The notes below the pieces were generated by a model that worked only from the letters and a program-made list of their open reading frames with translations, did not search any database and was not told the origin of the DNA. The translations under genes and the position numbers were made by a program. Below, piece by piece: positions 10,590 to 60,329 of a stretch of DNA of 64,000 nt. Origin of the DNA: Syncephalis fuscata (Eukaryota > Zoopagomycota > Zoopagomycetes > Zoopagales > Piptocephalidaceae); assembly GCA_025786725.1 (NCBI GenBank), contig JAHLTZ010000012.1, positions 62,001-126,000 of the forward strand, written 5' to 3'. Numbering within the stretch: position 1 is the stretch's first letter; each line of letters begins with the position of its first letter.

Positions 10590-10915
10590 GTCAAAATATA
10601 CCATAATACCACCTGATAATTTCTGCGTTGCATCTAATTCTCTGCTGATTAACACCATGAACAACATCTATATTTATCGCGTGTATATTACTGCTATAAT
10701 GATGAAAAAACAAGTAAAATAGTCGGGGTAAAAAGCTAACTTGGCTGCATAACAGGTACTAAATCAGCAATTCCAAAGGCGCTTCATTATACCCGCGTTC
10801 TATTGTATAACCGGTTATGTCGTACAGCAATTTATGCAACAAACAAGGCAGCATTTTGATTTGTATCCTTCGTTATAATAAAATCTTTATTACCCACCCA
10901 GTGTATTAAGCAATT
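10590..10915. other. Short intergenic gap between two membrane-protein genes
   Basis: About 326 bp, AT-rich, no recognisable signal beyond its likely promoter role for the next gene. Confidence 0.5.
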
Positions 10916-12217
10916 ATGATTCCTTTTTCGTGCTATTTCATACATTTCTCCACTCTACTTTACGTCGCTTTTTCAAATATTTCTACTCAGCATTATTTAT
11001 ATTTATTAATGTATCTAACAAACAATTCAGAGGATACGCTCTGCTTTCCAGTAACATATGGATTTGAATGTGGACCCAGGTCTATAATCCTATACACAAC
11101 AATAGTTTGTCTTTGTATATCAATAGGCACGCTCATTCATTGCACAGCAGTGGCCGTCTATCGGCAACGCCATGGGTTATTCATGTCACTTTTCTACATG
11201 GCCGATGGCTATTTTATTCCAAAGCCCATGGATATCTTTATTGTAAGCCAAATCATTAGTGAATTGATGCAAATTTTTCAATACACCATTGCTTTGGCCA
11301 ATTGGCCGCGCAGTATAGTAATCAATTACATTATTAACGCTACCTCTGCCGCCATTATACCACTTACTGGATTTTGGGAATTGATTGGGATTGTTTCTCA
11401 TATCCCACCTGTGTTCGTGTACCAGCCTTCAGTTACGAGGTCAACCTTTCAGGGTCAATATCGAGAATTAGACGACACGGCAATTATACCATGTGCCAAA
11501 ATATATAGCATTTTTGTGCCATCTATCCGCACACTTTATTGGCTTAATATATTTTTTAGTATATTGTCAACGGTGCCGACAATCGGTCTGAGCGTCTGGT
11601 CTGGATGGGTTCAAGAGAATCATAAAATCGACATGGTTTCCAGTTCAGAAACCAGTTATTTAGTCTCCTACGGCCTGGTGAATACAATCTATACCAGTGG
11701 CGGCATCTATTACTACTACGGTTTTTATCGCATACTTAAGGCTTGTACAGAGCAGTCATCCGATAACCATCGTAATTATGAGGAAAAAAGAGAAATGGCT
11801 TCTGGATTCCGTAATATCTTTTTAGCCATTATAGTAGCAGGTATTACTGTGTGGTTTTTTACGATAGCTGGCCATTTATTTTCAAAACTTGAACACGAGC
11901 ATGAATGGTGCCATATAATCTCTATTGTTATCCAATACGCTATCATTTATCCAACCATTCAGTGGATTATCAGCTATTACGTATTGAAAAACTCAAAAAC
12001 TCAAGTGAAGCGCCAAAAACACATATCGTTAAGTGTGGTAGAAAAAGATGCTGCTAATTATATATCAGCCTGTAGAAGTGATATTTACGGTAACTCGTGT
12101 AATTTTGGCTCTACACGGGTGTATAGCTGCTTAGAACAAACCGATGGTTCATTAGTGTGGCATAGCTTTGTAACACATTCTTTACTAGCTTCTGATGATG
12201 TTGCAATAACTAGATAA
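10916..12217 (+). CDS. Lineage-specific 7TM protein, paralogue of 59058-60329
   Basis: Single exon, ATG at 10916, 433 aa. An N-terminal hydrophobic stretch (signal peptide or anchor) precedes a short Cys-containing loop (CFPVTYGFECG), then seven helices. Shared with the copy at 59058: R-x-R-x-GLF, P-x-D-F-I near helix 2, NWPRSIVI against DWPKSMLF, GIVSHIP against GIISHIP, YYYYGFYRIL against YYCYGFYRVL, FRNIFLA against YRNIFLA, and a C-terminal LVWHSF against LVWQTF. Polar cytoplasmic tail. Layout suggests a receptor-like protein, but I recognise no known family. No introns, unlike most neighbours. Confidence 0.75.
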   Translation: MIPFSCYFIHFSTLLYVAFSNISTQHYLYLLMYLTNNSEDTLCFPVTYGFECGPRSIILYTTIVCLCISIGTLIHCTAVAVYRQRHGLFMSLFYMADGYFIPKPMDIFIVSQIISELMQIFQYTIALANWPRSIVINYIINATSAAIIPLTGFWELIGIVSHIPPVFVYQPSVTRSTFQGQYRELDDTAIIPCAKIYSIFVPSIRTLYWLNIFFSILSTVPTIGLSVWSGWVQENHKIDMVSSSETSYLVSYGLVNTIYTSGGIYYYYGFYRILKACTEQSSDNHRNYEEKREMASGFRNIFLAIIVAGITVWFFTIAGHLFSKLEHEHEWCHIISIVIQYAIIYPTIQWIISYYVLKNSKTQVKRQKHISLSVVEKDAANYISACRSDIYGNSCNFGSTRVYSCLEQTDGSLVWHSFVTHSLLASDDVAITR

Positions 12218-13707: not shown

Positions 13708-15114
13708 GCTGTCGACTTGTTTATTCGTTTAATAAATGGAGTACCCTTGTGAAGTTGCTTTATTTGTGTGCTAATGTTTCGTTAAAATAGCTCGATGCAG
13801 CTTGATGTACTTGGCAATAGAGTGGTATAGCTAACTAGATGCTTGAATGAATGAATAAACAGCAATCTTTCTTTTGGTAATTAAAATAATCCAGCTAAGC
13901 AATGGCTATCAAACACACAATTAGTATTTATTTACAGAAATATAACATTACGTGCTATTAACATATGAAGTGGCTATTCATGTTAATTTCTACTCAGTTG
14001 TATTGGATACAAAACCTACTAAAGGGCAAAGGTAGTATCCGTTAACTTCCTCATTCTATCATGAATTCAAGAGGTTAGGCCTTTTGGATTCAACAGCATT
14101 AGAAAGTAAATGCAAGGCCAGGATCAGGTTAATACGGCTGTATACAGACGTAACACTTGGCCGGATTTCATTGAAGGTGGAAATGGTGTAAACCTGTTAA
14201 AGGATATATGGCAGTGTACACCAATTAGACATGTCTACTGTTGTTCCATCCATATGCGCCAAGCAGCTTGTACCCCTAATCATTCTATCTTCTCACGCGA
14301 ACATTATATTTTTAAATTGACAGCTATTAAATGACAATTTAATAACGCACTGATGCTTACAATATTTAGTGCAGTATTTTAAAATATAGTATTCGCGTGT
14401 ATGATATCCGTATTAATTCTTCAGATGTCATAAAACTAAGGTGGCAACGATCATATAAAAATAAATAAATTATAATTGGTGGTTGATGTGCAATAGGCCA
14501 GTTGAACTATTACATTGTTTCAAAAATGCCGCTTTATTCACATGAGCAACAATATCTATTGATTGGATACATTCTATTTTGGTGATATTCTACTGCAGAC
14601 GAGACACTATGTCCTTTGTTGGCCTTTCTATTGCTTAGAACAGCAAATACTATTGGTTATAGGCTAAACATTGTGTGCCCCATTTCTGCATAGTTTAAGA
14701 CCAACCTGTTTTTATTGGGCTTTTGAATATCATCCCAATTTATCCATAGTAATTTACATGAGTAGATAGATGATGTTTTGTAAATTGATATTCTAGACAG
14801 ATTTTAATTGGACAAATGGCCTAAATGTTACAGACGAACCACTGCTCTGTTATTATGTGTCTGTTTGAAAATAGCACATGCATGTATTTTCATTGGTGTT
14901 AGCATATTTGCATCATGCTTCTATAGATAGAATCTCGACTGCTCGGTTTAAAGGATTGCAAACTAATTTAAATAGCGCGATGTTGAAGCGTAAATCCAAC
15001 TTCAGTACAACAACAGCTTTATTCCCCACTTTCTACATCCTACTTTTCTATACTCCAATACATATTCTTCTATTTGCTTTTAATAGCTTCTACTACCAAA
15101 TTAGCATCATCACC
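13708..15114. other. Intergenic gap upstream of the cysteine-rich secreted gene
   Basis: About 1.4 kb, AT-rich. Contains unsupported short frames (for example 14110-14334). The last 60 bp before 15115 are pyrimidine-rich and end in CACCATG, a good start context. Confidence 0.5.
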
Positions 15115-15552
15115 ATGAAGTTCTCTATTGCTACCGCTTCTGCTTTGGCCGTGCTCTTCGCAGTTAGCACAACTATGGCGGAAACTAGTTATGCTCCCAA
15201 GGGCAATCAATGCATTAAACACACCGATAATGGCGGTATTCTTGGCTGCCCTGCCTTCCAACTTCCAAAAGATAAAAAGTGCAAGGTTGTACCTGGTAAA
15301 TCTGGTGCTGCTTATCCTGATTGCTGTCCTCGCCCGGTTTGCGATGAACACAAAAAAGAGCCTGAAAGCCCAAAACAATGCATTAAAATCGATAAGAATG
15401 GCGGTATTCTTGGCTGCCCTGCCTTCCAACTTCCAAAAGATAAAAAGTGCAAGGTCGTACCTGGTAAATTTGATGCTGCTTATCCTGATTGCTGTCCTCG
15501 CCCGGTTTGCGATGAACACAAAAAAGAGCCTGAAACCCCAAAGAAATACTAG
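15115..15552 (+). CDS. Secreted cysteine-rich protein, two SVWC-like units
   Basis: Single exon, 145 aa, ATG at 15115 chosen because a clean signal peptide follows (MKFSIATASALAVLFAVS, then TTMA). Two nearly identical 56-residue units start at 15211 and 15379. Each has six Cys: C, GC, KKC, YPDCC, PRPVC. The YPDCCPRPVC ending is typical of arthropod single-domain von Willebrand factor C (SVWC/La1-like) proteins. Each unit ends in a Lys/Glu-rich linker. The 168-bp DNA repeats are almost identical, so the duplication is recent. The SVWC relation is my reading of the Cys pattern. A role as a secreted effector or surface protein is a guess. A relic copy lies at 62160-62260. Confidence 0.8.
   Translation: MKFSIATASALAVLFAVSTTMAETSYAPKGNQCIKHTDNGGILGCPAFQLPKDKKCKVVPGKSGAAYPDCCPRPVCDEHKKEPESPKQCIKIDKNGGILGCPAFQLPKDKKCKVVPGKFDAAYPDCCPRPVCDEHKKEPETPKKY
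15211..15546 (+). repeat. Tandem 168-bp coding duplication
   Basis: Units 15211-15378 and 15379-15546 differ at a handful of positions (for example HTDNGG against IDKNGG, KSGAA against KFDAA). The reading frame is kept. Confidence 0.9.
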
Positions 15553-19485: not shown

Positions 19486-20157
19486 TATAGCAGCAAAGTA
19501 ACAAAAACAATGAATTTAAACTATTATCGTGTAATGTAAAACTCTAATCAGATTTACTATGTTTTGATTTGATCATTAAGTTATAGTCCAATGTGAACTG
19601 CACGCTCAAATCAGTGCTATTTTAGTTTTACCTATCTATTTATATAGACAATATAGCTGTAAACTAGAATTTTAAGGTTTTTCTCTTTTTATCGTACACT
19701 ATATCTCTGTCAATATAAACACATTGATTATATGTTATAGCCTCTATAAATAGTGTATATTAGTACACCACTCCCCTTCGATCATAAATCAGTATACGGA
19801 GCAACTATTATAACGTCCAACAGTATAGCCATACTAAATATACAATGTTCAATAGATACTATTTACTGAATATAAACTATAAATAAGCACGAACATAACA
19901 ATTGGATTACATATAACTAAAATGAAACCATGTGTTTATTACTACAATCTTGCATAGATAAGTAGGTAACTAAATATATATTTGTTCATAATATAATGGT
20001 GTTATTGATTAAAGTAGATAAACTGAGTATTGGATTGAATCTGGTATATGAACGGCTTGAGTAACAATTGCCAAATGGTCTTAGTTTTTATCAGACGTAA
20101 ACTATATAGAAACAGCGGTCCAGTCACAATATTAAAGTTAGTATCCTGAAAGACTTA
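19486..20157. other. Gap between INTS9 start and micro-exon gene stop
   Basis: AT-rich, about 670 bp. No further unit of the 80-bp array is recognisable below 20158. Expected to hold the 3' end of the micro-exon gene and the INTS9 promoter. Confidence 0.5.
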
Positions 20158-21932
20158 TTATCTTGAAGCTATAAATACATACAGAGTATTCATATAATTA
20201 GCGTATAAGTCAATAAAATACAATATCCCTTACCTCCTATCGATATTGTTATTAAGGACACAAAATACATAGCTCATGTTTTAATGTATAGTCGATTAAC
20301 AAAGAGATCACTCACCATCTAGCAATGCAATTTAGTGAGCACATAAGATACATGGCACATGTTTAACGTATACTCTAATCAATATACAATGCCACCTACG
20401 AACTATCGATAAAGGTTAAGTACACACAATACATAATGTGTAATTAGCGTATAGTTGACTTATATAGAATGTCACTTACTATCTAACGGTGTTAATTTAT
20501 CAAATACATAAAGTGAATAGCGTATATTTAGTGCTTATTCTTTTGATATACAATGCTACTTACTCTCTATTTATTAAAGCCATAAAGCACACACAGCGTA
20601 TAACATATGTTTAGTGAGTAGTTGCTTAATATAAAATGCTGCTTACTGTCTTTTGGTGTTGAATCATGTACAAATATTGTATAGTATATGGTCAGTAGAT
20701 AGTTACTTGTATGCTAGACTACTTACGAGCTATCGATACAATTCATTGAATACACAATACATGACATGTAATTAATATATAATTATTTAATTTATAATGC
20801 CACTTACTAACTATTAATAAGTCATTAAACACACGCACAAAATGTATAGCATATGTTTAGCGCATAGTTGGTTGATGCAAGATTTTACTTACCATCTATT
20901 GATGTTGAATTATTAAGCATATACAGTGTATATCGTGTAATTAGCACACAGCCGGTTAATATACAAATGCCACTTACGAGCTATTAATGTTAAACCGTCA
21001 AACACGCCAGTTTACAATATGTTTTAACGCATAGTTGATTAATATACAAGTTCACTTACGCCCTATCAATATAATTTATTAATAATTCATGATACATAGC
21101 ATGTAATTAACACATAATTCCTTATTATGTATACCACTTACGAACTATTGATAAAAGTTATTAAACATATACAGTACATGGTATGTAAGTAATGTATATT
21201 AATACGTAATTTTACTTACAACCTATTTATATCAAATCATTGACACGCACAGTGAGTACGTTTAGTATATAATTATTCAATATGCCAAACCACTTACGCT
21301 CTATCAATATAAATTATTAAGCGCAAATCGTGTACAGCATGTATTTAACGTATAATTTAATTAGCATACAATGCTACTTACTAGCTGTTAATAAATCATT
21401 AAGAGTATAGTGCATAACATACGTTAGCGCATAGCTGCCTAGTATACACTATTACTTACAATCTGATAATATTATATTAATTATACAACAGTGTTTTATT
21501 AGCTAAACAACAATTATTTCCACCGTAATTTACCTCCTATCAATGTAAATTTAGCATATTAATATCGTCATTGTAATACATTATATATTGCTTAATGGTA
21601 AACTTACTTTTATTCAGTGGTACTAATTTACCCATTATTTGGTGGCAATTAATCGTCAATTATCACACCAACAATCGTAAGTTTTTAAAACTTACTCTCT
21701 GGTTACATGTGTAAGGCATCACGCTGTAAGTATTGGAACAGCAGCCCATAATTGCAACTTACTAGCTAGCATTATTATTAATTAGCCATAATGCTAGTAA
21801 GTATAGCAGTTTGCACATTTATTATAGTTAAAACATACCATGGCCTAATGGAGTTGGTTTAGCATCCACCATGGCTGTATTAATCACAAAAGCCACTACA
21901 ATGGTGCAGACGACGGCAATAGAAGGCTTCAT
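20158..21932 (-). CDS. Micro-exon gene: secreted KR-containing peptide split into 22 exons, 19 of them 3 nt
   Basis: Exon 1 (21932-21839) encodes a signal peptide (MKPSIAVVCTIVVAFVIN, then TAMVDA) and KPTPLGH, ending in phase 1. Internal exons, by lower coordinate: 21763 CTA, 21696 AGA, 21608-21622 (15 nt), 21534 GAG, 21460 ATT, 21382 CTA, 21298 AGC, 21220 GTT, 21142 TTC, 21060 GGC, 20978 CTC, 20893 ATG, 20808 TTA, 20727 CTC, 20647 ACA, 20564 AGA, 20480 ATA, 20400 TTC, 20316 ATG, 20234 GAG. The terminal exon is 20168-20158, ending TAA. Each is preceded by NAG (mostly ATAG) and followed by GTAAGT or a near match. Joined, they give 58 aa, containing LNKR and DSKR and ending NIHGASR. The other two phases stop at once or in the 15-nt exon. 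Function unknown; a processed secreted peptide is inferred. Confidence 0.7.
20169..21838 (-). repeat. Array of 21 related introns, about 80-bp period
   Basis: Introns are 64-82 nt. Most share GTAAGTGGCATT or close variants at the 5' end, a central ACTATGCG(C/T)TAA-type stretch and a 3' end like TTTAATATCAATAG. They look like tandem copies of one intron. The triplets between them differ in nearly every unit. Confidence 0.88.
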
Positions 21933-23106
21933 GGCGATATTGATTTATAAAACAAACAAGTATAATAGACAATAGAGTTTAGTAGTATAAAGTAAGCAAT
22001 AGGTATTTGGCAGAAAGTAGAGTGTGATAATACTACTACTAGTCGGTTACGTGTATTGTGTGGCTATTTAAGTTTATGGTTATTCTAAGATGCCAACATG
22101 CCGCATTGTAGGATTATACTAGTGATGCATAATGTGGACCAATAACAACACACCCACGTGGGGCTTAAGGCATGCATATACCAATATATCGACAATGTGA
22201 TAGTATACAGCATAAGTTTGCTTTAATCAGGCCGCGATGAGACAGATAATGCGGCAACATCAATAATTCAGTACATGTGTGGTAAGAATGCACCTATTGG
22301 TGTGTATTGTGCTGTTGCACGATTCAGCTTTGCGGCGCAAACTGAATCTATTGGTTCTACAAAAACGCTGATGCGCATCGCTATGTCTTTGTTATTCCTT
22401 TCGTCAATAATCTCAATATCCTTTATTTCAATGCATTCAAAATATTGCTTAGCATTAATACGACAACAAATTAACGTATTAAACTTATACTCTTTAAAGC
22501 TATTTACTGTCGTGCGCAGACTAGCATGATTTTAACCCATAAGAATATACCGATTGATTTACTTATGCATTTAATTTTACATTGCAGCTTGGCTAAGTGG
22601 TAAGTAATTTATTGGATTTACAAACGACTTGCATCTAAACATAACATTGCGCGCATTGTACAGTTGTTGAAATCGGCTGTGCAACAGCGCTACTTGCAAT
22701 GTAATCCATTATATTATTTTTAATGGTTAAACAATCCATTTTGTCGCTGACCCCATTGTATGCTCAGCTATAAAGTAACTTGCATTGGCTAATTACATAC
22801 AATACAGTATGTAGACACTATGTTACGTGGATCTAGTAGTTTCGGCTATATACTGCTAGTTTTAAACACATAATGATCGCATTGTTGTATTATTAATTTT
22901 ATTGCACGATATTTCTATTCAAAATCAAATAAAAAGACTAGAATAGATAATAAAAGGTAGAACCAAAGAATATCGGGTTGAGCAAACAACTTCATTGTGT
23001 CATGTCTCCAGCAATGGTCATATCGCAGGGCAACAGAACGAAGACAGAACTAACATTTTAATGCTAATTGGTTGACTACAGAACACTAAACATTTCTTTT
23101 TTTGTT
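21933..23106. other. Intergenic region between divergent micro-exon gene and TCD gene
   Basis: About 1.17 kb. Likely promoters at both ends. An open frame at 22275-22529 (plus) has a hydrophobic middle but no splice-consistent context or family match, so it is not called. Confidence 0.5.
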
Positions 23107-50651: not shown

Positions 50652-53844
<3,193 letters not shown>

Positions 53845-57101: not shown

Positions 57102-59057
57102 TATAAACGTAATTTTATTAAGGAGGAAGGGCATGTAAAAAAGTAATAAAAATTGGTATTCTGACCAGAAATTCTAGATTTTATACTAAATTGAATAATT
57201 TGCTTTTGGATATGCCAGCTCGAGATATACACAAAAGTGGCAAAAGTGGAATTTTTATTGTGATGACACGCAATAGAAGTATACCAGAATGGAAACCACG
57301 TTTTCTAATACCAAATTAAGCATGTACAAAAATGCGGGGATTGAAAATGAATGACGACTAATAAGCTCAATGACATATGATTATTTGATTAACATGACAG
57401 CCATGTTTACTGTAAGAATAAACCTACTTTGCTGTTGCTATCGTATGTGATAATGTCGTATAACAGCTATGAAGAAAATCCACTACGTAGAATAGATTAT
57501 TAATTGTAGCAGATAGTTTTTAAACAATGCCACGTGTATTAAATATTCAAATATTTCATGAAAATAGAATCTATTGCTTAATGTGGCTAAATTTGCAAGT
57601 GTTTAAATCCAAGGCATCTATGAATATCACTGCCACATGACATTATATAGATATACAGAAATGCTTAATCAAATCGGTCTTTTAAACCTTGTATAATTTA
57701 TAATAGTTTAATGTTTGAGCAGTCAGAAACAGTCTAATTCGAGAAAATTTCATATATAGTCTTTTATATGGAACCAAGTTTCCTCTTTTGCATAACTTTT
57801 TGGAAACTTTATTTAGTAAAAAAACGTAAAAATAAGGGCCTAATACTAAAAATACCTGGTAAACTAAAACTTTAGGCCAAAGTTTATGAAAACAAGCGCA
57901 TGTTTTTGTCGATGCAAGCACTGTTTGGACAAAAAGCAAATTGCACAATTGGTTGCTCTTTATTTCTATCACAATGGAGTAAAAATTCAGATTGCTGATA
58001 TATTAAAAATTAAAAAACCTTTGTTACATGAAAGTAGTGTGCGTTGAAAAAGTTCACAAAGTAGCGAATGTAATCTAGTGTTTAATATGACGAAAGCAAC
58101 GTAGTTATAAATCAAGCATAAAGCAGTTGAATCATCCAATTATACACATTTAATTTTCATTAAAAATAGTGTATTTCAAATTTATTATTAAGAAAAACGA
58201 GTACCACTACCGTTAAAATAGTCAATGCATACGTATTGCTTATGCGGATTCCAACGTTGGCTACATAATAAACTGGTCACGGCTATTAGGGGCAACAGAG
58301 GATGATGTTATCATAGCTAATTTACTACAAAATGACACTTGTTTTAGGTGTTTATCCACTTGCTCCGCCTTGGCTTATTCTATACATACAATATAAATTA
58401 CTCATCATTTTTCCTACAAGGCTAGTAAAACTTGCCCACCTGATAGTTTTATCAAGCAAGCGTGCAGCTATAAATGATTGCTTTACGCTGTTATTAAGTA
58501 TGAAAACCGATTTTAAAATAAATACTACTTTTTATCATTTGATAATGGACAGTAACAAAATTGTGTCTGTGGCATTGAATAGCAATACATCACGCTATCG
58601 CCAGCCATCTACATGATGATATGTATGTGTCTTTTGTATGTAACTTGGATAGACGTATACTTGTTAATGGGTCCATCGATGTCACAATGAGTTTTGGATT
58701 TAATCTGCTTGCGCAGTCGGCCGCCTATCAAGGGCGATACATAGTCTGGTAGACTTCCACTCGAAACCGTTTTTCATTGTTGTTATCGTCTGGGTGCCCA
58801 TACAATTAAAAAAAGCCTGGACACATGATAGCTAAGGTGAAATTAAAAGAACAACGTGCTGCATCAAACTGGAATTTAATAAACTAGCCAATTGCCCTGT
58901 ATAATAGACAAAAAGGACTGTAATCGCAAGATGTACTTTTTATTTTATTATTATCCGATTATAGCCACTTTGATCATCGATCAGCCATTGAAACGTAGCA
59001 TTACAGCCAATATTGCATTATATATTGATATTTTATGAATTTGACAAAGCTTGTACA
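57102..59057. other. Intergenic region upstream of the second 7TM gene
   Basis: About 1.96 kb. Open frames at 57682-57972 (minus) and 58332-58616 (plus) lack splice or family support. Sequence is less AT-extreme near 58680-58760, possibly decayed coding DNA, but I could not identify it. Confidence 0.45.
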
Positions 59058-60329
59058 ATGAGGTTACCTGATGTGTCGACTGGGCTTCCCTGTAATCCCT
59101 CTAGCAATGTCTATGATTGTCGAGATTATGCCAAGTTTTTCTATGTTGTAGTTTCCAACTGGATTGGGGCGTTCATAGTTTTTGTCGGCGCTATGGCTGT
59201 GCTTTACTATCGATGGCGGTATGGTCTATTTGGAGGACTATATCGCCGTATCAACAACTATTGGATTCCTGTCCCAATTGACTCATTTATGATATGCATT
59301 ATTATGGGTGAATTTATACGAGCCACCAAACACACGCTTGTATTACTAGATTGGCCCAAATCAATGCTTTTCCGCGACACGATGAACATGGTTGTAACGG
59401 TTTTGGATGCACTCGGTGTAGCCATGCTCACAGTAGGCATCATTAGCCATATTCCGTCTACGTTCACCCAACGCACCCAACACTATCCTATGGCGTCAGC
59501 AGCACAAGGATATTCAGAATCATACCTGCGAATCCTAGTACCAAGTACAAAATATCTATTTTGGATCTCTTTGTGCTTTTTTATACAGATGGTAGTCATC
59601 AACGTTAGTATGGGTGCGTTGGTGGGATGGGCTAAAGACCACGGAGTGAAGAGTATAGCATCTACAGCTGAAAAGATGGAAGCGCTATGTATGGCCATTT
59701 CTATCCTTACAATCGTGATCATCAACTGTTATTACTGCTACGGATTTTACCGCGTTCTGCATGCGCATGTCAACAAACTACAATACAGCTGTAGTGGTCG
59801 GCGCGATGCCGCACGTTGCTATCGTAATATCTTTTTAGCTGTTGCAATTCTATTCTCTGCATCAAGCTTGTTTGCCATCATGATTGGCGTATTTGATCGA
59901 CAGATTCGTAGTCGGACTGATTTGCGTATTATTATTGCTGTATTGCAGTTTTCTGTCGTCTATCCTATACTTGCCCTAGCTATTCTGTACAACATATGGC
60001 GGACATCACAACTACAAGTCCACCGCAATGCTGTGACAACATTGGCTACTGGTTCGTCCAAATCACCAGGTCCTTTATTAAATGGCAAACAGGACTACCC
60101 CACAGGAACGACAGCAATGACAGTCACTGATATTGCTGGTGATTGCAGTGGTGTCATGGAGCCCACATTGGTTTGGCAAACGTTCATTTCAGGCAATGCA
60201 CCGACAAATCACGACGTAACCTATTTAAATTATTCTACACGTGCTGGTGAAACGGCAAATGATAGCTTGGTTAATAATTACGGGGTCAATTACGACAGTT
60301 TCATTAATAATAATCGCATCATATGTTAA
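59058..60329 (+). CDS. Lineage-specific 7TM protein, paralogue of 10916-12217
   Basis: Single exon, 423 aa; start at the first in-frame ATG (MRLPDVSTGLPCNPSS). Short Cys-bearing extracellular N-terminus (LPCNPSSNVYDC), seven helices, polar tail ending after LVWQTFISG. Shared signatures with 10916: RYGLFGGLY against RHGLFMSLF, WIPVPIDSF against FIPKPMDIF, GIISHIP, PSTKYLFW against PSIRTLYW, CYGFYRVL, YRNIFLA. Same lack of introns. A GPCR-like receptor is inferred from topology only. Positive residues flank the loops as expected for N-out. Confidence 0.77.
   Translation: MRLPDVSTGLPCNPSSNVYDCRDYAKFFYVVVSNWIGAFIVFVGAMAVLYYRWRYGLFGGLYRRINNYWIPVPIDSFMICIIMGEFIRATKHTLVLLDWPKSMLFRDTMNMVVTVLDALGVAMLTVGIISHIPSTFTQRTQHYPMASAAQGYSESYLRILVPSTKYLFWISLCFFIQMVVINVSMGALVGWAKDHGVKSIASTAEKMEALCMAISILTIVIINCYYCYGFYRVLHAHVNKLQYSCSGRRDAARCYRNIFLAVAILFSASSLFAIMIGVFDRQIRSRTDLRIIIAVLQFSVVYPILALAILYNIWRTSQLQVHRNAVTTLATGSSKSPGPLLNGKQDYPTGTTAMTVTDIAGDCSGVMEPTLVWQTFISGNAPTNHDVTYLNYSTRAGETANDSLVNNYGVNYDSFINNNRIIC

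Follow-up and report, generated by a model that had tools for sequence, protein, structure and literature searches.

The locus considered here raises the question of whether a gene can be written in such a manner that nearly every codon of the peptide it encodes is an exon of its own. The window, i.e., the whole 64,000-nt stretch of Syncephalis fuscata DNA that was analysed, carries on its minus strand, from 21932 to 20158, a signal-peptide exon followed by 20 short exons and a stop-bearing last exon (Table 1). According to the original prediction, 20 sites following the signal-peptide exon each comprise an AG, a tiny exon, and a GT, with 19 exons of 3 nt and one of 15 nt, and all are present. 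The recount of 17 donors starting with GTAAG among the 20 that follow the short exons (the other three are GTAAA, GTAGG, and GTGAG) and of lengths of 64–82 nt for the 21 GT-AG introns agrees exactly with what had been claimed, and the spliced coding sequence was reassembled through to the TAA at the predicted 177 nt, giving 58 amino acids (MKPSIAVVCTIVVAFVINTAMVDAKPTPLGHAKIPLNKRDSKRFRPHVTHKNIHGASR*). The motif [CT]AG-N3-GTAAG occurs 15 times in this gene versus 4 times in the remaining window, both strands included, and the pairwise difference per site within the array is 0.37–0.38 for the introns and 0.67 for the 3-nt exons. Dibasic sites are processing motifs of secreted propeptides, and the single 15-nt exon, which has a counterpart in CGCCATTGGCTAAAA (APLAKR) of L011 and L016 and in the uninterrupted AVEPLAKR of L014, corresponds to a conserved propeptide segment ending in such a site (PLxK|R).

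Table 1. Layout of the array gene in the window, with exons in the order of the predicted transcript.
Feature	Positions in the window	Strand	Size	Sequence or remark
Upstream flank	21933..22508	-		Homology to uninterrupted paralog L014, 71% over 672 nt, into exon 1
Exon 1	21839..21932	-	94 nt	Predicted signal peptide and start of propeptide; leaves phase 1
Tandem array	20169..21838	-		21 GT-AG introns around small exons
Exon 2	21763..21765	-	3 nt	CTA
Exon 3	21696..21698	-	3 nt	AGA
Exon 4	21608..21622	-	15 nt	TACCACTGAATAAAA; reads IPLNK+R; second dibasic site
Exon 5	21534..21536	-	3 nt	GAG
Exon 6	21460..21462	-	3 nt	ATT
Exon 7	21382..21384	-	3 nt	CTA
Exon 8	21298..21300	-	3 nt	AGC
Exon 9	21220..21222	-	3 nt	GTT
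Exon 10	21142..21144	-	3 nt	TTC
Exon 11	21060..21062	-	3 nt	GGC
Exon 12	20978..20980	-	3 nt	CTC
Exon 13	20893..20895	-	3 nt	ATG
Exon 14	20808..20810	-	3 nt	TTA
Exon 15	20727..20729	-	3 nt	CTC
Exon 16	20647..20649	-	3 nt	ACA
Exon 17	20564..20566	-	3 nt	AGA
Exon 18	20480..20482	-	3 nt	ATA
Exon 19	20400..20402	-	3 nt	TTC
Exon 20	20316..20318	-	3 nt	ATG
Exon 21	20234..20236	-	3 nt	GAG
Last exon	20158..20168	-		CTTCAAGATAA; carries TAA stop codon
Downstream flank	19920..20052	-		Family 3′ end; similar to region past the stop of uninterrupted L028, 72%, 138 nt, E 1.8e-13

Elsewhere in the window, an open reading frame on the plus strand at 14875–15552, with a likely signal peptide as judged by eye, matches SVWC domains (PF15430, E 1.2e-9) in two stretches and overlies a 168-bp tandem repeat with a 97% match. 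The SVWC domain is known mainly from arthropods, and its occurrence in a fungus of the Zoopagales is unexpected. Two long hydrophobic open reading frames on the plus strand, at 10910–12217 and 58992–60329, appear alike by eye, and the former has no Pfam match.

Taken singly, the open phase across the 20 junctions of one gene is weak evidence, as approximately 4% of shuffled junctions are stops; the strength of the one-codon-exon reading derives from a family-wide stop test and not from the window gene alone. The window gene is one member of a large family of putative secreted-peptide genes. Genome-wide, the motif TAATAG-Nk-GTAAGT occurs 2,716 times with a spacer of k = 3 (reversed control, 5) and only 26, 14, and 15 times with k = 2, 4, and 6 (controls, 36, 20, and 7, respectively). 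This strict form is fitted by 256 of the 445 modelled 3-nt exons, such that the genome may contain some 4,700 3-nt exons by extrapolation. The exon-1 peptide has at least 150 genomic matches (150 scored, of 303 candidates), and among the best 30 of these places, 14 lead into an array, 9 into an uninterrupted reading frame, and 4 into neither clearly, while exon 1 was not re-recognised in the remaining 3; the gene counts for the array family are lower bounds and refer to one genome. Runs of 3-nt exons are also found at L045 (plus strand), L046 (minus), and L051 (minus) with no family exon 1 recognisable nearby, and these may represent other signal exons, fragments, or more diverged genes. Neither of the two public gene models examined includes the array; one of them, P0122, is consistent with our model over exon 1 and the first intron, beyond which it reads on.

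Relatives of the family were sought by several routes. A profile search with the cysteine-rich members returned 15 proteins, all from Syncephalis fuscata, and among 138 candidates (relatives sharing 5-residue words) no named protein of another species was found at E 0.01. Pfam searches of the 15 members gave just two weak matches, each in one of the 15, a PDB search with family members gave one match at E 0.95, and Rfam gave one tRNA and nothing else. The AlphaFold2 model of one uninterrupted member is poor (pLDDT 64). Several array genes occur in inverted pairs whose partners are 18 to 57 kb apart: the pair at C1:476–478k (plus) and C1:531–534k (minus) is 4% different and differs by whole cassettes too, whereas the pairs at C1:575k (minus) and 610k (plus) and at C2:519–522k (minus) and 537–540k (plus) are near-identical, with introns differing by 0.4% and 0.1%, respectively.

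Gene models of the arrays were built by dynamic programming that scores splice sites and intron length and has no preference for exon lengths modulo three; genes with fewer than 4 internal exons, genes whose introns scored poorly, and the shorter copies where one gene appeared more than once were left out. The 19 modelled genes contain 483 internal exons, 445 of which are 3 nt long; 465 are multiples of three and 18 are not. By contrast with this fixed exon size, intron lengths are frame-neutral (166/161/175 modulo three), although most are similar, with 458 of 502 at 70–83 nt and a typical length of about 78 nt. Exon 1 leaves phase 1 in 17 of the 19 genes, and judged by exon length, 9 of these models stay in frame throughout. 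The exons that are not multiples of three could be model errors at array ends, assembly indels, or broken copies, and some copies do look broken: the gene at 543k has two 2-nt exons, L039 has a 5-nt and a 2-nt exon, and the exon-1 donor of L049 is without GT. The longest model, L050, comprises 87 internal exons, 84 of them 3 nt long, with an unbroken 3-nt run of 63, and its integrity is uncertain because it also contains exons of 10, 2, and 16 nt. Unbroken runs of 44 and 37 3-nt exons are found in L053 and L044, respectively, the latter being an in-frame model with 40 internal exons.

Whether the tiny exons are joined in order can be read from the stop codons that their joining would create. 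A phase-1 codon consists of the last base of one exon and two bases of the next, approximately 80 bp away, and the stops observed at such junctions were compared with 3000 within-gene shuffles of exon order, near-duplicates being left out beforehand (L011, L012, L039, and L043 from set A; L012 and L039 from set B). At adjacent junctions in phase 1, there is 1 stop in 362 versus 15.0 expected (sd 2.9), and 0 of the 3000 shuffles are as low; in set B, i.e., the gene models, the count is 1 in 365 versus 15.3, the single stop lying at unit 83 of 87 in L050. When the same phase is read across exon-skipping junctions at distances of 2, 3, and 4, stops number 13/324, 14/286, and 8/248, versus 13.2, 11.4, and 9.5 expected. 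Phase 2 is at chance for adjacent junctions (35/362 versus 38.3 expected) and is somewhat low in set B at distance 3 (27/307 versus 34.9, with 68 of 3000 shuffles as low). Stop triplets are also rare in phase 0 (1/400 versus 8.9 in column shuffles, which take the place of exon reordering in this phase, 1 of 3000 being as low), possibly because such triplets disturb the neighbouring splice signals. Since phase 0 is also low in stops, stop rarity alone does not single out phase 1, which is singled out by the phase that exon 1 leaves, by order dependence, and by peptide matches. Selection acts on the reading frame across the junction of each exon with the next, and this pattern is what ordered inclusion of every exon predicts; it would not be expected of a satellite, of an array that is skipped, or of combinatorial skipping under selection. 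The original prediction, in which almost all codons form 3-nt exons of their own and exon 1 determines the phase, is thus supported by stop avoidance across the family, and further by the exact 3-nt spacing genome-wide, the frame-neutral intron lengths, and the homology of several other members to paralogs.

Information regarding the encoded peptides comes from members that lack the array. In many family members, the common signal peptide and RR lead into a mature region that is short, frequently rich in cysteine, and encoded in a single open frame. The peptides assembled from 7 of the 19 modelled genes were compared with 26 uninterrupted rows, with the first 26 residues removed and 1,000 exon reorderings for each gene; the assembly was restricted to exons of at most 15 nt whose length is divisible by three, the cysteine pattern of L040, L044, L051, and L060 was already known before the test, and the 26 rows include some redundancy (L031 and L062 represent a single gene, L064 and L065 hardly differ) and one short row, L078. 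Reorderings that score as well number 0 for L040, 0 for L044, 1 for L060, 10 for L053, and 18 for L041 of 1,000 each. For L051, 200 of 1,000 are as good, and for the window gene, for whose mature peptide no homolog was found among the uninterrupted paralogs, 965 of 1,000; the case for these two genes therefore rests on anatomy and family. Scores against the uninterrupted rows are 17–24 for phase 0 readings and 19–58 for phase 1 readings. L040, L044, and L060 have a cysteine pattern in common, as displayed in an illustrative alignment (A1) of 15 rows, in which 4 assembled peptides were picked for their cysteines, C-terminal ends were set by hand at the last visible exon, the L063 row was shortened, and L043, a near-identical paralog of L044, is included. 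The best partner of both L053 and L041 is L014, and the propeptide PLAKR is common to all three. Uninterrupted L014 (C1:523550) encodes the repeated segments SSAIKHK, GSALKHHH, and VSALKHSK, which are, we presume, reminiscent of membrane-active peptides. The assembled peptides of L047/L048 and L050 are Glu/Gln-rich, helical by eye, and not cysteine-rich, and arrays therefore seem to encode several unrelated-looking mature peptides.

The uninterrupted and array forms can be aligned on both sides of the array. Uninterrupted L031 matches array gene L049 at 79% over 1,375 bp, approximately 1.26 kb of which lies upstream, the match ending at coding nt 97, close to where exon 1 ends, and a second block of 87% over 314 bp starts 1 nt before the stop codon. 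With L040, L051, and L060, whose exon 1 is 94–97 nt long, the first match of L031 ends at coding nt 96 and the second starts from 1 nt before to 12 nt after the stop codon. Judged from these alignments, the two forms are paralogs in place that differ by the array. The simplest reading of the uninterrupted form is in-place intron loss mediated by cDNA, with intron gain as the alternative. The alternative that uninterrupted copies were simply retroposed to new sites was rejected because L031 keeps homology for more than 1 kb upstream.

How the arrays themselves change is seen in close paralogs. The genes at C24:477k and C24:543k have identical or near-identical ends, introns included, whereas the middle differs by whole intron-plus-codon cassettes; cassettes with the same triplet often have an identical upstream intron, and the two 2-nt exons of the 543k copy are either a broken frame or an assembly error. 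The comparison shows that arrays evolve by gain and loss of whole cassettes. A block of units is also duplicated within L050 (units 36–39 and 76–79). Exons that appeared to change faster than introns between L011 and L012 (17/62 versus 64/1213) looked like positive selection and turned out to be a register shift due to whole-cassette insertions and deletions; exon and intron rates in the other four paralog pairs showed no difference at 0.05. Among 182 unit pairs from 13 genes in which the more different flanking intron differs by 3–10%, the triplets differ at 0.57–0.60 of positions, 155 of the 182 pairs being from one gene, L053. When the flanking introns are less than 3% different, the triplet is common to 7 of 12 pairs, and without L053, it is common to 4 of 5 pairs at less than 3%, 1 of 3 at 3–6%, and 4 of 24 at 6–10%. 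These figures do not distinguish codons that diversify under selection from introns that are homogenised around kept codons or from insertion.

Insertion leads to the alternative that survives best, an introner-like origin in which mobile introns invaded an uninterrupted gene between its existing codons. It concerns the origin and not the reality of the exons, and it is considered here for the arrays of one gene family. The divergence of triplets between similar introns, mostly in L053, would be expected under such an invasion, and the same anatomy would arise if each insertion duplicated a 3-bp target. Nevertheless, insertion leaves unexplained the exact 3-nt spacing and the constant phase over dozens of units, and the triplets that accompany the most similar introns, the block duplication in L050, and the turnover of whole cassettes all speak against it, such that we regard this origin as unlikely.

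Combinatorial alternative splicing, in which skipping of cassettes would yield many in-frame peptides per gene, fares less well. Because the 3-nt exons are symmetric in phase, any skip keeps the frame; however, stops at skipping junctions are at chance levels, from which it follows that skipped products are not under selection for openness. We therefore consider selected skipping improbable, although cassettes may be skipped at a low level or without selection. Still less probable, and in our judgement very much so, is a non-coding minisatellite that is removed in the form of a single long intron or a small number of them and whose splice-like motifs are a by-product of the repeat. Its units would indeed be tandem, homologous, and approximately 80 bp long, as found, and exon 1 of the window gene joined straight to the last exon retains a short open frame (...GHASR*), but full skipping leaves hardly any mature peptide, stops in the exon-1 phase are avoided at adjacent and not at skipping junctions, the spacer is fixed at 3 nt while intron lengths vary freely, and several assembled peptides are closer to uninterrupted paralogs than the products of reordered exons are. 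Pseudogenes or an assembly artefact, suggested by 1-nt changes that break the frame in some copies (the 543k gene), by L038, which looks like a frame-shifted copy of L028, and by a near-identical copy of the window locus at about 31 kb on the small contig C279 (1 mismatch and 158 gap columns over 3,106), is in our view the least probable, as the exons at 2,716 strict sites across the genome are exactly 3 nt long and an open phase persists in the sampled arrays.

Ordered splicing of one-codon cassettes remains the preferred reading, and we put at roughly 85% the probability that these genes are a family of secreted prepropeptides whose mature peptide is coded by tandem cassettes of an intron and one codon, spliced serially, a figure that reflects genomic sequence. 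The mature peptide would be written as tandem cassettes, in each of which a GT-AG intron of ~78 nt is paired with a 3-nt exon that supplies the second and third bases of one codon and the first base of the next. The introns would be removed serially by intron definition with every cassette normally included, and the product would undergo secretion and cleavage by a Kex2-like protease at dibasic sites (RR, KR) and would presumably serve against or within the host fungus. The donor and acceptor matrices of the arrays are GT-AG like those of ordinary introns of the same genome, and the candidate branch-point motif CTAAT, whose distance varies, occurs in 211 of 461 introns. Within the window, two ordinary introns, at 52303–52367 and 52830–52886 in what we read as a purine-synthesis gene, have GTAAGT donors and lengths of 65 and 57 nt (by eye); given ordinary introns with the same donor and a similar size, no special spliceosome is needed for the arrays, although the fidelity over dozens of splicing steps would be remarkable. 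Unequal recombination between homologous introns could add or remove whole codons with the frame kept, because each cassette is flanked by such introns, and codon turnover free of frameshifts suits fast-changing peptides. Some members may have lost the array introns in place via cDNA, resulting in an uninterrupted mature region. With less assurance, we also think it probable that this codon-is-exon form of gene is used genome-wide (2,716 strict single-codon exons, ~4,700 extrapolated), with dozens of serial splices per secreted peptide, the cassette as the unit of evolution, codon-wise recombination without frameshift, and finished versions frozen as uninterrupted genes via cDNA.

If this is true, the arrays are a limit case for splicing, as one small peptide needs dozens of splices. 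Exon definition has no room to operate where 3-nt exons follow one another by the dozen, and the genome thus puts intron definition, serial splicing, and splicing fidelity to a natural test thousands of times over. The genus Syncephalis has been called depauperate in secondary-metabolite genes in the excerpted text of a review (PMC10386755), and the family suggests a secreted peptide arsenal in this mycoparasite genus. It likewise suggests a mode of peptide evolution that proceeds codon by codon through insertions and deletions that are proof against frameshift. Since the arrays are missing from the public gene models examined, genes of this kind may have gone unnoticed elsewhere.

Several known systems resemble the arrays in part. 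In recursive splicing and intron definition, adjoining intron segments are removed serially from one donor onward; recursive sites leave no exon, whereas each step in S. fuscata would leave 3 nt in the predicted mRNA. Prepropeptide superfamilies of the conotoxin type combine a conserved signal peptide, dibasic cleavage, and a hypervariable cysteine-rich mature peptide, a layout to which the present family is similar, except that conotoxin-type mature peptides are not split by codon and those of S. fuscata are. The micro-exon genes (MEGs) of schistosomes, as excerpts of one account describe them, number 35, with 10–20 exons of 3–81 bp (6–81 in its text), most often 15 bp, and introns of 0.1–5 kb (PMC10526429). 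The likeness extends, in those excerpts, to secretion, a conserved signal peptide, tiny exons whose lengths are mostly divisible by three, genes that are hard to annotate automatically, and a parasitic organism (PMC10526429), and a signal-peptide exon followed by many small symmetric exons is present here as well. By contrast, 445 of 483 internal exons in S. fuscata are 3 nt long and do not span the size range reported there for MEGs, and the introns are short (458 of 502 at 70–83 nt, ~78 nt), mutually homologous in tandem, and fungal. Bicycle genes of aphids have, in the excerpted description, an average of approximately 17 exons in phase 2, with more than 100 microexons in one gene, and share with the present genes a putative effector role, many small internal exons in one phase, and fast coding evolution (PMC9168663). 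The S. fuscata arrays are in phase 1 (17 of 19 models) and not in phase 2, where stops at adjacent junctions are at chance, and exon sizes and tandem intron-plus-codon cassettes do not figure in that excerpted description (PMC9168663). No homology to MEG or bicycle proteins was found in the profile search among relatives sharing 5-residue words.

Exons of 3 nt had been called impossible by exon definition in the original prediction; exons so small are not impossible, since 1-nt exons with transcript support are described in the excerpted texts of two reports, one on Fusarium CYP621A (PMC12940212) and the other on plant APC11 and VPS55, in which intron loss mediated by reverse transcription was inferred for APC11 (PMC8831610). 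A 3-bp exon of Drosophila hth is likewise mentioned in an excerpt (PMC7392893). In these cases, exons of 1–3 nt are spliced and, as here, an intronless relative serves as a yardstick; theirs, as far as those excerpts describe them, are isolated, whereas those of S. fuscata follow one another by the dozen. Among the matches listed in open-licence PMC literature, runs of single-codon exons and Syncephalis micro-exons were not found. We accordingly rate the cassette array as the new part of these genes, and if all genes with small symmetric exons are counted as one kind, the arrays are its extreme variant.
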